Assembly: GCA_024072375.1 (NCBI GenBank)
Contig: CP099617.1
Location: forward strand, 1,468,001 to 1,532,000
Length of the DNA: 64,000 nt
Direction: 5' to 3'
Source of the DNA: Sphingomonadaceae bacterium OTU29LAMAA1
GTDB lineage: Bacteria; Pseudomonadota; Alphaproteobacteria; Sphingomonadales; Sphingomonadaceae
In this document: piece after piece, positions 6,212 to 43,293 of the stretch
How the letters are laid out: every line of letters begins with the position of its first letter
Position numbering within the stretch: the first letter of the stretch is position 1
Position numbers and translations under genes: made by a program
Notes under the pieces: generated by a model
Databases searched by the model: none
The model's input: the letters and a program-made list of their open reading frames with translations, nothing else
Told to the model about the DNA's origin: nothing

Positions 6212-6240
6212 GCCGGCGGATGTATCCGCCGGCCCTTTGC
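6212..6240 (+). terminator. Rho-independent-type terminator
   Basis: Perfect 10-bp stem GCCGGCGGAT (6212-6221) / ATCCGCCGGC (6224-6233) with a 2-nt gap, followed by CCTTTGCTT. It lies 26 nt after the lipoprotein gene stop. The T-run is short, as is usual in high-GC genomes. Confidence 0.65.
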
Positions 6241-31099: not shown

Positions 31100-32317
31100 T
31101 CAGGCGACGGCGGCTTTCAGTCGATCGACGAGGTCGGTCTTTTCCCAGGTGAACAGGTCGCCTTCCGGCTCGCGGCCGAAGTGCCCGTAGGCCGCCGACT
31201 TCACGTAGATCGGCGCATTGAGCTTCAGATGCTGGCGAATGCCCTTGGGCGTCAGGCGTACGAGCTGTGGCAGCACCTGTTCCAGCTTCGCTTCGTCCAC
31301 CGTGCCTGTGCCATGCGTGTCGACATAGACCGACAAGGGTTCGGCGATGCCGATCGCATAGGACAACTGGATCGTGCAACGCTTGGCAAGACCCGCGGCG
31401 ACGACGTTCTTCGCGAGGTAACGCGCAACATAAGCTGCGGAACGATCGACCTTCGTCGGGTCCTTGCCGCTGAACGCGCCACCGCCGTGAGGGGCGGCAC
31501 CGCCGTAGGTGTCGACGATGATCTTGCGCCCGGTAACGCCGGCATCGCCATCCGGCCCCCCGATCTCGAACGCGCCGGTCGGGTTGATGTAGACCTTGGT
31601 CTCGTCGGTGACGAAGCCTTCCGGAAGGATGCCGGTGAAGACGCCGGTGACGTAATCCTTCAGCACCTCGTACCTGGCGGGATCGGCGTTCTCGCCCTGC
31701 AGGCAGTAACCGGCCTTGTGCTGGGTCGACACGACCAGCGCGACCGCACGGACGGGCACGCCGTTCTCATAAGCGAGCGTCACCTGGCTCTTCGCGTCCG
31801 GCTCGAGGAACGGTGCCTTGCCGGAATGGCGATCGGCCGCCATCGTCTCGAGGATCTTGTGGCTGTAATAGAGCGTCGCCGGCATCAGTCCTGGCGTCTC
31901 GTCGGTCGCATAACCGAACATGATGCCCTGATCGCCCGCGCCCTCGTCCTTGTTCGACCCCTCGTCGACACCCATCGCGATTTCCGCGGACTGGCCGTGC
32001 AGGTTGTTCTCGAACGTGAAAGTTTCCCAGTGGAAGCCGGTCTGTTCGTAGCCGATCCGGCGAACCGTCGCGCGTACTGCAGCCTCGATCTCGTCGAGCG
32101 CGCCGTCAGCCCATGCGCCGTTCTCGTACACGCCCTTGCAACGGATCTCGCCCGCCAGCACGACGAGGTTGGTCGTCGTCAGCGTTTCGCACGCGATGCG
32201 CGCCTCGGGGTCCTTGGATAGGAACAGATCGACGATCGTGTCGCTGATCTGGTCGGCGACCTTGTCCGGATGGCCTTCGGAAACCGATTCCGACGTAAAG
32301 ATATAGCTGCTGCGCAT
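31100..32317 (-). CDS. metK: S-adenosylmethionine synthetase
   Basis: Enzyme of 405 residues making SAM from methionine and ATP. Motifs in order: [20 protein letters not shown], the substrate loop [36 protein letters not shown] and [22 protein letters not shown] 32317 has GAGG five bases upstream. A perfect 24-bp palindrome lies 13-37 nt before the start, and a strong hairpin follows the gene. lnt is immediately upstream on the same strand, so metK may be read from lnt, from its own promoter at the palindrome, or both. Confidence 0.97.
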
Positions 32318-32330
32318 CACTGCCTCATAA

Positions 32331-32354
32331 CGATATAAAGATGCCTTTATATCG
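32331..32354. promoter_or_regulatory. Perfect palindrome in front of metK, candidate operator
   Basis: CGATATAAAG (32331-32340) and CTTTATATCG (32345-32354) are exact inverted copies around 4 nt (ATGC). AT-rich palindromes of this size are typical operators for ArsR-type dimers, and SAM/SAH-responsive ArsR-family repressors (SahR-type) control metK in a number of proteobacteria. No regulator gene is adjacent, so the identity of the binder is inference. Confidence 0.6.
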
Positions 32355-32357
32355 GCC

Positions 32358-33899
32358 CTACCGCTCGCGGGGGCGGATGGCAACGGCGGCGATGACGAAC
32401 ATCAGCGCGACGATCAGCGCCGCCCAGTTGCCGATCCGGCTGAACGGCGTCGGCGGGAGCGCGGGTGGCATCGCCATCTCGATCGCGCCCGCGGTCTCGT
32501 GCGGCACGGCGGCGAGCAACCTGCCGTCGGCGGCGATCACCGCCGAGATGCCGGTCGGCGTCGATCGCACGATCGGCAGCCCTTCCTCGATCGCGCGCAT
32601 CCGCGCCTGCGCCAGATGCTGCGGCGGCCCCCAGCGCCCGAACCACGCGTCGGTGGAAGGATTGAAGATCATGCGCGGTCGATGCGACGGATCGACGACG
32701 TGGCCAGAGAAGATGATCTCGTAACAGATCTGGAAACCGATCGCACCGAAGCCGGGAACCTCGAGCGTGCGCGGTCCGGGACCGTCGTCGAAATCGAAAT
32801 CGCCCGGCACCAGCCGCGCGAGCCCCAGCGGGCGTAGCAGCCACGGCATCGGGAGATATTCGCCGTACGGCACCAGATGCGCCTTGTCGTAGCGCCCGAC
32901 GATCTGCGCCTTCGCATCCAGCGCGAACACCGAATTGGATGCACCGGCCACGTCCCCCTGCGCATCGAAGCGCAGAGGCGTATGACCGGTCATCAGGATA
33001 TCGCGCGGACCGAGCCGCTGCGCCAGCCGCCACCGGTTGAACAGCGGGCTCTGGCCGTCGTATATCCACCGGGGATAGCCGCTCTCCAGATAGTCGCGGA
33101 TCACGCCTTCGGGCCATAGTACCAGTCGCGGCCGCAGCCCGGGCTTGCCCGACTGGCGGAGGAGCGCGGCAAGCATCAGCTCCTGATCGTCCTCGCCGCG
33201 CGCATCCTGACCGATGTTCGGTTGCACGACGCGCAGCAATGGCGCGTCCGGTGCGGCGGCGGGTGCCTGCGTCCACGATGCCGAGATCGCGGCAAGCGTC
33301 AGAGCCGCCGCGATTGCCGCCGACATCCGCCAGCGGCGCTGCGCCAGCATCAGCAGCGATACCGCCGCCAGCACCGTCACGCCCGACAACGCATAGGTGC
33401 CGATCCATGCCGACAATCGCGCGACGCCGATCACGGGCAACCAGATCACGCCGATCGGGTCCCAAGCATAGCCGGTGAACAGCACGGCGCGGAGGTATTC
33501 GCTGCCGATCCATGCGGCGGCGAAGACCAGCGCGTAGCGGGCATCCGGCCTCCGTGCCCGCCCGAACTGCCAGCCGATCGCTGCCGTCAGCATCGGGAAT
33601 ACCGCCAGATACAACGCGAGGGCGACCGCGGCGAAATAACCGAGCACCGGCGGCATCTTGTCCTGAAAGTCGAACGCGTGCTGAAACCAGTTGTTGTTGA
33701 TCGTGAAGTGCCCAACGCCCCAGCACCAGCCGATCCATACGGCCCTGCGCCGTGTCGGCGCGGCATGGACCAGCATGGCGAGGCCCGCGAGACCGATCAC
33801 GGTGAGCGGCCATATTTGCAGCGGCGCAAAGCCGGTTGCGGCGATCGCACCGAGCAGCAGCGCTATGAAGGCAGGACGGCGGGTCAGAAAGCTAGGCAT
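32358..33899 (-). CDS. lnt: Apolipoprotein N-acyltransferase
   Basis: Inner-membrane enzyme of 513 residues that adds the third acyl chain to lipoproteins. About six to seven membrane spans in residues 1-215 are followed by a periplasmic nitrilase domain with the catalytic triad: Glu in [12 protein letters not shown], Lys in [16 protein letters not shown] and Cys in [11 protein letters not shown]; a last hydrophobic segment ([14 protein letters not shown]) ends the protein. ATG 33899 is chosen because it begins the first membrane region. It reads toward metK with only 40 nt between them. Confidence 0.95.
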
Positions 33900-39967: not shown

Positions 39968-40279
39968 TTAGCCCCTTCTGTCGCGCTCCGCCTCTAACGC
40001 GGCCAATTTGATGGGATCGTCGGCTGCCAGCGCCTCTTCGAGGTAGAAGCCATGGGGTATATCGCGCACCACCTGTTGCGCCTCGCCGCTGTATCCTTCC
40101 GCTATAACCGGGAATGCGTCCACCAATTCACGTAAAAATCCCTTGTCCATCTCTTGGAGATGACCGCCGAGCGCTTCCATCATTTTCACGGCGGTATCGA
40201 GGTTGAGGTCTTCCTCGTCGGTAAGCTCGAGAAAAACGACATATTCTGCGATAATGCCCGCAACCTGCATAGCAATCAT
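39968..40279 (-). CDS. Immunity protein 1 (predicted)
   Basis: Acidic soluble protein of 103 residues, no signal peptide or membrane span. It has a hydrophobic N-terminal strand (AGIIAEYVVFLEL), an acidic DEEDLNLDTAVKMMEAL and helical segments to LEEALAADDPIKLAALEAE. I do not recognise a named family. Calling it an immunity protein rests on context: its ATG overlaps the toxin 1 stop (ATGA), it is small and acidic, and a decayed duplicate of exactly this toxin C-terminus and gene lies just downstream. Neutralisation would be by direct binding in the cytoplasm. Confidence 0.7.
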   Translation of the reverse strand: MIAMQVAGIIAEYVVFLELTDEEDLNLDTAVKMMEALGGHLQEMDKGFLRELVDAFPVIAEGYSGEAQQVVRDIPHGFYLEEALAADDPIKLAALEAERDRRG

Positions 40280-41385
40280 GGTTTGACGACCTTTACGTGG
40301 TTGTTGGTGACGTTCATCGTCTTAAATAATCTCAAGGCCTTGGCCTTCTGGATCGCCGTGGGAACCTCCCACAACCCGATCAGGCGGTGTTCGGCCAACA
40401 CAGCCGACTGCCGCACGATCTGAGCTCGCGCGCGCGGCCTGTCCACGACAGACCATTTTCGGTCGATCACGTAATCGCCCTGGATGCCGTCAAACTTTAC
40501 AGGCCGCTTCGAGCCGTCGGCCATTGTCCGTATCAATGTCGGGGCTTGACCGGGACGCGCGCCGGCTGCTGCGTCGTTATACAGCTTCCATGGTTTTTTG
40601 GATTTGCTCGTTTCCCTGACCCAGCCGATCTGCGGCGGATCATAGCTCGTGCGCGGCACCGCCTTGCGCAGCCGGCTCAATCCGGAGACCTTGCTCAGCG
40701 CCGCCCCGGGCGCTGCCACAAGCGAAATGTTCCCGGCAACCGTCCCCGATGCACGGCCGATATCTCGCGCCGAGGCGTCGGCAATGGCGCTGGCCGCACG
40801 GGAAACCTGGATATAGGCGGGCGTATCCTCAGCAGCGATCGCGGCATCGATCACACCCGCGATTCTGTGACCGGCGTTGCGAACCGTGGTCGCCGGATTC
40901 GTCGTTAGCGCACCATAAACTCCCGCCGCCGTTCCTTTCCCAACATCGTATAGCCCCTCGCCGACTCCACCGATAAATTCGGTAAGAGAACCTGGTTCGT
41001 TACCGGGCCGCCGCCCGTCTATACGCCCGGGCCGCACCGCTGGTGAGGCATAGGTCATCGGCTTTCGGCGCTCTCTCTTCGGCAGTTGAGCAGGCTGTGA
41101 TCCCGCGATCGGCAGTGACGCGATCCGCGACTTTCTAAGTTTCCCTAAGGCAGAAGGGCCGCCAGCGCTGGCCGACGTCCGACTGCTTCCCCTGTTAATA
41201 CCATCGGCCTCTCCCGCTCCATAACGGTGTCCCGAGCCAGCAAAGGTGAATCGGCCATCTGCCGGATCATGCCACGGGTTGAACTTGAGTTCGAGACCGT
41301 CAGGACTGCGTACCGGTGGCAGCGTACCTGTTCGCAGCCACCATGAAAAAGCACTCGACTGCCCACCGCCTGCTATCCTGTTCAT
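40276..41385 (-). CDS. Polymorphic toxin 1, predicted nuclease C-terminus
   Basis: Protein of 369 residues with three parts. (1) Residues 12-52 (WLRTG, then DG-x-ELKFNP, HDP, G-x-FTFA) form a module that is 28/41 identical to the start of toxin 2. (2) A Gly/Ala-rich middle (about 135-240; VGEGLYDVGKGTAAGVYGAL, GNISLVAAPGAALSKVSGL) resembles pre-toxin spacer regions. (3) The C-terminal ~110 residues have KPWKLYNDAAAGARPGQAP, VKFDG (Asp299), YVIDRK (Asp308, Lys310) and GLWEVPT, a D..DxK arrangement like PD-(D/E)XK nuclease folds. No signal peptide or secretion genes are visible. ATG 41385 follows GGAG and is 25 nt from the shared upstream block. Nuclease activity is inference. Confidence 0.72.
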   Translation of the reverse strand: MNRIAGGGQSSAFSWWLRTGTLPPVRSPDGLELKFNPWHDPADGRFTFAGSGHRYGAGEADGINRGSSRTSASAGGPSALGKLRKSRIASLPIAGSQPAQLPKRERRKPMTYASPAVRPGRIDGRRPGNEPGSLTEFIGGVGEGLYDVGKGTAAGVYGALTTNPATTVRNAGHRIAGVIDAAIAAEDTPAYIQVSRAASAIADASARDIGRASGTVAGNISLVAAPGAALSKVSGLSRLRKAVPRTSYDPPQIGWVRETSKSKKPWKLYNDAAAGARPGQAPTLIRTMADGSKRPVKFDGIQGDYVIDRKWSVVDRPRARAQIVRQSAVLAEHRLIGLWEVPTAIQKAKALRLFKTMNVTNNHVKVVKP

Positions 41386-41410
41386 GCCGCTCCGCCTTTC
41401 ATTACGGCGA

Positions 41411-41443
41411 GAACATCTGAGCAACATTCCGCAACAAGTCAAG
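41411..41443 (-). promoter_or_regulatory. Shared 33-bp upstream block of toxin 1
   Basis: Matches the block before toxin 2 (43107-43139) at 28 of 33 positions and at the same distance from the start codon (25-26 nt). On the coding strand it contains TTGACT, a -35-like hexamer, and then GTTG-N7-GTTC, one base off the alphaproteobacterial LexA operator, around the expected -10 position. Confidence 0.6.
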
Positions 41444-41510
41444 TTTGGACATTACGGGCCAGCGGGACGGTGCCCACCTCGGTCGTCTTCAAAGTACGTC
41501 TTTTAAAGAA

Positions 41511-41537
41511 TGGTGCCCCACAGAGGACAAAGCTGGG
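41511..41537. repeat. 27-bp intergenic repeat, copy B
   Basis: Second copy of the repeat at 39853-39879 (one mismatch). It lies 25 nt beyond the stop of immunity gene 2. Both copies follow an immunity gene, which suggests a conserved cassette end. The first seven bases (TGGTGCC) also match the 3' end of the nearby tRNA-Thr gene including CCA, read on the same strand. Confidence 0.7.
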
Positions 41538-41562
41538 CACTCAAATTATTGGGAAATTGCGA

Positions 41563-41958
41563 TCAGTCGCCGGTGACCTCGCCCTCATCGTCCGGCAGTT
41601 CCTTTCGGACGCGCCGGTTGCGAACGTCCTTCAGCACGTCCTTCATCTCGAACAGCAACGCACGACCCTCGTCCGTCTTCCCGTTGGTGTCGTCGTGGTC
41701 GGCCGCAAATAGCGCCTTGGCCCGCACGGCTAGGTTCATCAGCGACGCATAGCGCTCCTCGCCCAGCTTTTTGCGGACGACCTCGAATCCGCCGGTAAGC
41801 GTGTGGAACTCGCTGTCAATATTTTGCCCGGGAAAGTCGCCGAGACGGTCCACGAATGTCGGCGCATCCAGGATCATCGACCCCAATAGGTCGTTGATCT
41901 CGCTTAGCGAGCCGGGAATGTAGGGTTTGGGATTGAAGTAGGGGTTCGGTCTGCTCAT
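41563..41958 (-). CDS. Immunity protein 2 (predicted)
   Basis: Soluble protein of 131 residues, no signal peptide. It has a Pro/Asn-rich start (MSRPNPYFNPKPYIPG) and helices such as EINDLLGSMILDAPTFVDRL and KKLGEERYASLMNLAVRAKAL, ending acidic (PDDEGEVTGD). No named family recognised, and no sequence similarity to immunity protein 1. Its ATG overlaps the stop of the toxin 2 C-terminal reading frame (ATGA), the same junction as in pair 1, which is the basis for the call. Confidence 0.65.
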   Translation of the reverse strand: MSRPNPYFNPKPYIPGSLSEINDLLGSMILDAPTFVDRLGDFPGQNIDSEFHTLTGGFEVVRKKLGEERYASLMNLAVRAKALFAADHDDTNGKTDEGRALLFEMKDVLKDVRNRRVRKELPDDEGEVTGD

Positions 41959-42416
41959 CGTTTCGTCTCCGGACGAGGAATAGCATAGGTGTGGTCGGAT
42001 CCGAGCTGGCGCGGGCGGATGATGACCACGCGGCTCGGACGGAAATCGGCGTCAAAGAATCCTCGAACTTGCGGTGTGCTCAGCGTCTTGCGGGTCAGGG
42101 TTACGTCGAACGCCACGTCGTTCACCCGCGCATCGGGACGGCGATAGGTCAAATCGCCACCCGAACTATTGTTCTCCCTCCGATTGACCCTCACCGGCCC
42201 CGCGCCTGCCGAGTCGATGCCGATTTGGTTATATTGCCTACGAAGGCGCAAACGCACCTGCTGATCCACATAGTTGCCCAGCGCTTCCTGATCAGACAGC
42301 CTCGGTGTGAGCCGACCTGCCTTAAGCAGCGCCACCCCCTGGTCATATGCCTCATCTGTGCGTCGTTGCACGAAGCGAAGCGTCTCCACCTGCAGCGACT
42401 CATAGTTACCCCTCAC
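41955..42416 (-). CDS. Toxin 2 C-terminal part (separate frame after a break)
   Basis: Reading frame of 153 residues starting at GTG 42416 and overlapping the end of the toxin 2 N-terminal frame by 11 nt. Helical start (ESLQVETLRFVQRRTDEAYD), then a C-terminal domain with VAFDVTLTRK, STPQVRGFFDADFRPSRVVI and PRQLGSDHTYAIPRPE; the FDVTLTRK element again has the D-x-(T)-x-K look of a nuclease core. There is no open frame upstream of GTG 42416 beyond about a dozen codons. Removing one G from the GGGG run at 42409-42412 would join it to the N-terminal part as AREGNYESLQVE. It is either the second half of a broken gene or a separately started coupled gene. Confidence 0.6.
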   Translation of the reverse strand: MRGNYESLQVETLRFVQRRTDEAYDQGVALLKAGRLTPRLSDQEALGNYVDQQVRLRLRRQYNQIGIDSAGAGPVRVNRRENNSSGGDLTYRRPDARVNDVAFDVTLTRKTLSTPQVRGFFDADFRPSRVVIIRPRQLGSDHTYAIPRPETKR

Positions 42417-43217: not shown

Positions 43218-43293
43218 TGGTGCCGCTTACAGGACTCGAACCTGTGACCCCCGCATTACGAATGCGATGCTCTACCAGCTGAGCTAAAGCGGC
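43218..43293 (-). tRNA. tRNA-Thr (anticodon CGU)
   Basis: 76-nt tRNA including encoded CCA. The acceptor stem pairs GCCGCTT with AAGCGGC, the D arm contains AGCTCAGCTGGTAGAGC, the anticodon loop is TTCGTAA (anticodon CGT, reading ACG), and the T arm is ACAGG-TTCGAGT-CCTGT. It marks the right border of the toxin-immunity island, a classical position for acquired DNA. Confidence 0.97.

Follow-up and report, generated by a model that had tools for sequence, protein, structure and literature searches.

A perfect palindrome upstream of metK in a Sphingomonadaceae bacterium as a predicted operator of SahR

The perfect 24-bp palindrome that separates lnt from metK in Sphingomonadaceae bacterium OTU29LAMAA1 is, with a probability that we put at about 0.92, an operator through which SahR controls metK, as predicted by comparing the 64-kb stretch of DNA analysed here (the window) with the rest of its genome and with related genomes. 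SahR is an ArsR-methyltransferase fusion. In the mechanism that we propose, a SahR dimer, whose subunits would each join an ArsR-family winged-helix part to a domain with a methyltransferase fold, would bind both arms of the palindrome, cover the metK transcription start and thereby block RNA polymerase. Rising S-adenosylhomocysteine (SAH) would then bind to the methyltransferase-fold domain and release SahR from the DNA, allowing production of the enzymes for clearing SAH and for regenerating methionine and S-adenosylmethionine (SAM).

The palindrome and its copies in the genome

The palindrome, CGATATAAAG-ATGC-CTTTATATCG, lies at positions 32331-32354 with no mismatch between its arms and occurs once in the window; no copy was present in 100 dinucleotide shuffles of the window. 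It takes up most of the 40-nt gap between the stop codon of lnt (32358-32360) and the ATG of metK (32315-32317), both on the minus strand, with its centre 25 nt upstream of that ATG, and its A+T content is 67%, compared with 34% for the GC-rich window as a whole. A preliminary description, made from the letters of the window, had reported a flawless 24-bp palindrome between these genes, centred about 25 nt before the metK start in a gap of 40 nt, and all of these figures hold. The 20-bp core that is common to the other sites, ATATAAAG-N4-CTTTATAT, spans 32333-32352, and a likely ribosome-binding GAGG for metK, assigned by its sequence, occupies 32323-32326 (minus strand) in the interval between the operator and the ATG. 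The putatively regulated gene, metK (31100-32317, minus strand), encodes S-adenosylmethionine synthetase, as judged by a match to TIGR01034 above cut-off and by the N, M and C S-AdoMet_synt domains of Pfam. The upstream gene, lnt (32358-33899, minus strand), encodes apolipoprotein N-acyltransferase (TIGR00546, above cut-off), its start codon being uncertain in a frame that is open to 34007. In a survey of 29 genomes, one per genus and with our own included, a match to lnt was present upstream of metK and on the same strand in every case.

The motif was searched for in the whole 4.13-Mb genome with up to three mismatches, the reversed pattern serving as a control. A 22-mer was found at four places (control, none), as was the 20-mer core, each time without a mismatch (control, one); the recurrence of the motif is thus beyond that expected by chance. 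The four copies are located upstream of metK, upstream of ahcY, 11 bp upstream of the gene that we identify as sahR, and upstream of mesX-mesD. The sahR product contains an ArsR HTH (HTH_5) and methyltransferase domains. Downstream of sahR, and sharing its site, are metF, a gene for a homocysteine S-methyltransferase and the large part of metH. The genome therefore has what marks a SahR regulon, i.e. a 20-bp palindromic motif present four times, sites that serve sahR, ahcY, metK and metF/metH as its core genes, and a gene for an ArsR-family regulator. Further copies had been anticipated near ahcY, metF, metH or an ArsR-methyltransferase fusion gene; those at ahcY and at sahR-metF-metH agree with this expectation, to which the copy at mesXD is an addition.

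A search of the PDB with the SahR protein itself returned proteins related to either its ArsR portion or its methyltransferase portion, with one weak match across both (AlpH, 8h3t, E 5e-4). In NCBIfam, among the 25 of 32 matched families that were listed, there was no SahR model, and a general ArsR/SmtB metalloregulator model was the sole one above cut-off.

Conservation with sahR and competing explanations

Sites with two or fewer mismatches are widespread in the family. Among 199 genomes drawn evenly from it, with our own in the set, such a site is present in 166, the commonest count per genome being three. Target genes were assigned for 70 sites of relatives, comprising 66 of the 75 listed from 26 genomes (our own excluded) and four from further loci. 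Of these, 26 precede sahR, 22 ahcY and 19 metK, i.e. 67 of 70 in all, and three lie elsewhere; nine listed sites were left out of the classification (one in G176, three in G177, two each in G100 and G156, and one in G108). The three sites elsewhere (L100, L104 and L119) have two mismatches each and, judged by open frames alone, are probable chance matches. In the 29-genome survey, 22 genomes, our own among them, have a site with two or fewer mismatches within 300 bp upstream of metK. Of the seven with no good metK site, four (G008, G014, G017 and G026) also have no SahR and three (G013, G022 and G027) have it. The preliminary description had named conservation before metK as a check on its guess that the palindrome is an operator for a repressor of the ArsR-type SahR group; this conservation and the copies in the genome together support that prediction.

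The regulator and the sites also co-occur among the 199 genomes. SahR was scored as present where the best E value was below 1e-40, a threshold chosen after the scores were known, the weakest positive genome being at 1.6e-47 and the best negative at 2.4e-13; on this basis 177 genomes, our own included, have SahR. From genome lists compiled by hand, 164 genomes have both site and SahR, two a site only, 13 SahR only and 20 neither (Fisher p 8e-17, uncorrected for relatedness). The 22 SahR-less genomes are spread over 14 genera, and the sites and sahR are lost together. Both genomes with a site and no SahR match (G025 and G176) are fragmented into hundreds of contigs. Seven of the 13 genomes with SahR only were inspected: the match in G032 is to a paralogue located next to mesX, a site stands at the usual place with three mismatches in G030, G038 and G163 and with four in G148, and G080 and G125 are more divergent. 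The genera g61 and g67 include both species with sahR and its sites and species with neither (G060, G132 and G136 versus G188, G066 and G191).

Considered merely as an inverted repeat, the palindrome is weak evidence and is unremarkable for 64 kb. The window has five perfect inverted repeats with 10-nt arms and gaps of 0-8, compared with 2.7 on average and 10 at most in 40 surrogates from a first-order Markov model, so the repeat itself does not exclude a chance origin without function; it is the recurrence of its exact arms before methionine-cycle genes, here and throughout the family, that makes such an origin extremely unlikely. (The other four repeats begin at 6212, 45939, 46299 and 50691, with gaps of 2, 6, 3 and 8, respectively.) Binding of the site by a dimeric regulator other than SahR, be it a different ArsR protein or a SamR-like SAM sensor, is very unlikely. 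Such proteins are at hand, there being several ArsR-methyltransferase relatives per genome (five matches in our own), but the sites are absent where sahR has been lost, and all 26 classified sahR sites stand 5-11 bp before sahR, a position that points to SahR autoregulation. With respect to SamR, ahcY has a site here, whereas it lies outside the SamR regulons in the parts of Leyn et al. (PMC4239095) considered here.

An RNA hairpin in the metK leader, acting in translation control, in attenuation or as the end of the lnt transcript, is suggested by the folding of the minus strand, which can form a hairpin of 10 pairs 13 nt upstream of the metK ATG. We regard this explanation as extremely unlikely, because the changes among relatives do not preserve the pairing. 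The 59 distinct sites (unoriented) have 65 one-sided changes compared with three compensatory ones; of the former, 37 break a pair and 28 leave a G-U as written, and at least one pair is broken in 20 of the 26 distinct sites that could be oriented to the metK mRNA. The region folds only weakly better than its shuffles (z -1.87, with 8 of 200 shuffles equally good), a terminator scan was negative at the palindrome, and the same sequence is present at other genes at quite different distances. A hairpin or terminator at the palindrome was thus rejected by folding, by the terminator scan and by the pair changes; that the letters are kept and the pairing is not argues that the palindrome works as DNA. 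A SAM or SAH riboswitch near metK was likewise rejected, as no such family was matched in the window at the Rfam gathering thresholds, in line with the earlier observation that there is none at this place. The window's only Rfam match is a tRNA (43221-43293), near which a series of short open frames on the minus strand (39968-42416), without any obvious function, is possibly a mobile or toxin-immunity-like element.

Promoter geometry and the mesXD operon

The position of the operator relative to the promoter is gene-specific, a feature that looks to be less well known. Sites were oriented by their target gene and near-identical flanks were dropped; the promoter patterns were picked after viewing the sequences, and the shuffled flanks, which gave means of 1.5 or less in these comparisons, correct neither for that choice nor for relatedness. 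At sahR, a TTG-type -35 box is present in the 12 bp upstream of the site in 22 of 25 cases, usually starting 6-9 bp before it, so that the operator would overlap both the spacer and the -10 region. At ahcY, the TTG-type box is in the 12 bp downstream of the site (14 of 18), followed in 10 of 18 by GCTA at -10 spacing, and at mesX a -35 box is in the 12 bp downstream in all 22 cases, mostly starting at the sixth base. The metK sites have a pair of -35 TTG-box and GCTA upstream (17/36), and from this the operator would cover the metK transcription start; the distance between site and metK start is not constant, ranging from 8 to 167 bp. A sigma-70 scan found no metK promoter in the window, so the reading of a promoter here is drawn from comparison with relatives. 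The window's own candidate, TTGCCA-15 nt-GGTAGG, is a loose match that does not fit the strict pattern of the relatives: its putative -35 box TTGCCA (32378-32383, minus strand) would lie inside the end of lnt, and its putative -10 box GGTAGG (32357-32362, minus strand), one letter off the GCTA of the relatives, would overlap the lnt stop codon.

The mesX-mesD operon of our genome is located outside the window (G000:C2:3156840-3158216; loci L002 and L009). It is preceded by a SahR site, and between this site and mesX its leader contains a cobalamin riboswitch that scores 115 bits with Rfam. MesX is present in nine of the 199 family genomes, one of the matches being partial (73 residues). In four of the nine, a cobalamin riboswitch on the strand of mesX is preceded at 24-28 bp by a SahR site (two or fewer mismatches), and the other five have neither.

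The arrangement extends to public genomes, for which the best 80 mesX loci were scanned, more being in existence; riboswitches were identified with Rfam at 40 of the 80 and by a rough pattern alone at the rest. Within this set our MesX is closest to that of Sphingomonas phyllosphaerae (77% identical). At each of the 18 closest of the 80 loci (titled Sphingomonas in 10 cases, Brevundimonas in six and otherwise in two), mesX is preceded by a cobalamin riboswitch on its own strand, and 16 of the 18 have a SahR site with two or fewer mismatches, those of the other two having four and five. Loci of the 80 titled uncultured Devosia and Ochrobactrum also have both the site and the riboswitch. In the remaining 60 of the 80 there is no site with fewer than four mismatches in the 700 bp before mesX. 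At six Rhizobiales-titled loci, among the 40 of the best 80 covered by Rfam, the cobalamin riboswitch is on the strand opposite to mesX and hence serves another gene. At two public loci (L136 and L146), the opposite strand carries a further cobalamin riboswitch near that of mesX, from which the neighbouring divergent gene is probably also B12-controlled.

In two family genomes, G032 (L121) and G144 (L127), the mesXD operon is opened by a gene for a SahR-like paralogue (50-51% identical) directly before mesX, and there is no SahR site before mesX; no SahR-like gene is present at the best 80 public loci. Upstream of the G144 paralogue, right after a TTGAC box, there is an AT-rich palindrome-like stretch, CTATATTCCTATATTGGCATATAG, a weaker version of which is present in G032. 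The paralogue and this stretch suggest that these two operons may have a further regulator, acting at an operator of its own.

The combination of a SahR site and a cobalamin riboswitch at mesXD looks to be less well known, and our literature search found no paper joining MesX or PF08908 with a riboswitch. In the parts of Price et al. (2021, PMC7857596) considered here, MesD with MesX is described as a core methionine synthase that needs oxygen and MesX and neither B12 nor methyl-folate, and mesD and mesX are required without B12 in Sphingomonas koreensis; the latter requirement fits with control of mesXD by B12. We give an even chance to a model for aerobic alphaproteobacteria in which mesXD would be a two-input switch, with SahR responding to SAH at the promoter and a cobalamin riboswitch in the leader turning the operon off in the presence of B12, such that production of MesXD would require both a high level of SAH and a lack of B12. 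In the same model, SahR would act from gene-specific promoter positions, i.e. over the -10 region (sahR), over the transcription start (metK) and just upstream of the -35 box (ahcY and mesX), leaving room for the repression of some genes and the activation of others. The interest of the metK site is modest and that of the mesXD arrangement is higher: if conserved, a promoter-plus-riboswitch arrangement of this type would make the choice between B12-dependent and B12-independent methionine synthesis directly testable.

Comparison with known systems

The SAM-SAH, SAM-II and SAH riboswitches, through which, according to the sections of PMC4239095 used here, proteobacteria regulate metK or other genes for methionine, differ from the present case, in which there is a 40-nt gap with a DNA palindrome and no such Rfam element in the window. 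SamR of the Xanthomonadales resembles the system studied here in being an ArsR-type relative of SahR that controls metK via a palindromic operator, as outlined in the same sections. Its 24-bp motif, however, shares only ATC-10 nt-GAT with gammaproteobacterial SahR sites, and its regulon, as given there, is without SAM-cycle genes except metK, hence without ahcY. An assignment as a SamR operator was rejected, since the arms of the palindrome differ from ATC-10 nt-GAT and ahcY has a site both here and in relatives.

The closest known system is the alphaproteobacterial SahR regulon, which, in the portion of Leyn et al. (2014, PMC4239095) drawn on here, likewise has a 20-bp palindrome and the targets sahR, ahcY, metK and metF/metH, and was predicted in all seven Sphingomonadales genomes covered. 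SAH-dependent binding of SahR was shown in Desulfovibrio by Novichkov and colleagues, as cited in PMC4239095, and the Desulfovibrio work is cited in the relevant passages of both PMC8877191 and PMC4239095 for SAH as the effector that releases SahR from DNA; SahR motifs are reported to change in a taxon-specific manner in the corresponding passage of PMC5343134. Given the prediction for Sphingomonadales (PMC4239095, as excerpted), the metK palindrome is best filed as one more predicted operator of this already described regulon. A difference lies in metE2, which is merely a genome-specific SahR target in that account, where the MetR section pairs it with PF08908 (now MesX), whereas here mesXD has a full site. 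Similarly, the MesD/MesX system of PMC7857596 is represented here by mesX-mesD, one of the four site targets in our genome, but the portion of that paper considered here names neither a riboswitch nor SahR, and in our genome the operon combines a cobalamin riboswitch with a SahR site. Our results thus give a name, as a predicted SahR operator, to the control site of metK in this genome, and support with a large genome set the published prediction of an SAH-sensing circuit over SAM synthesis in sphingomonads.
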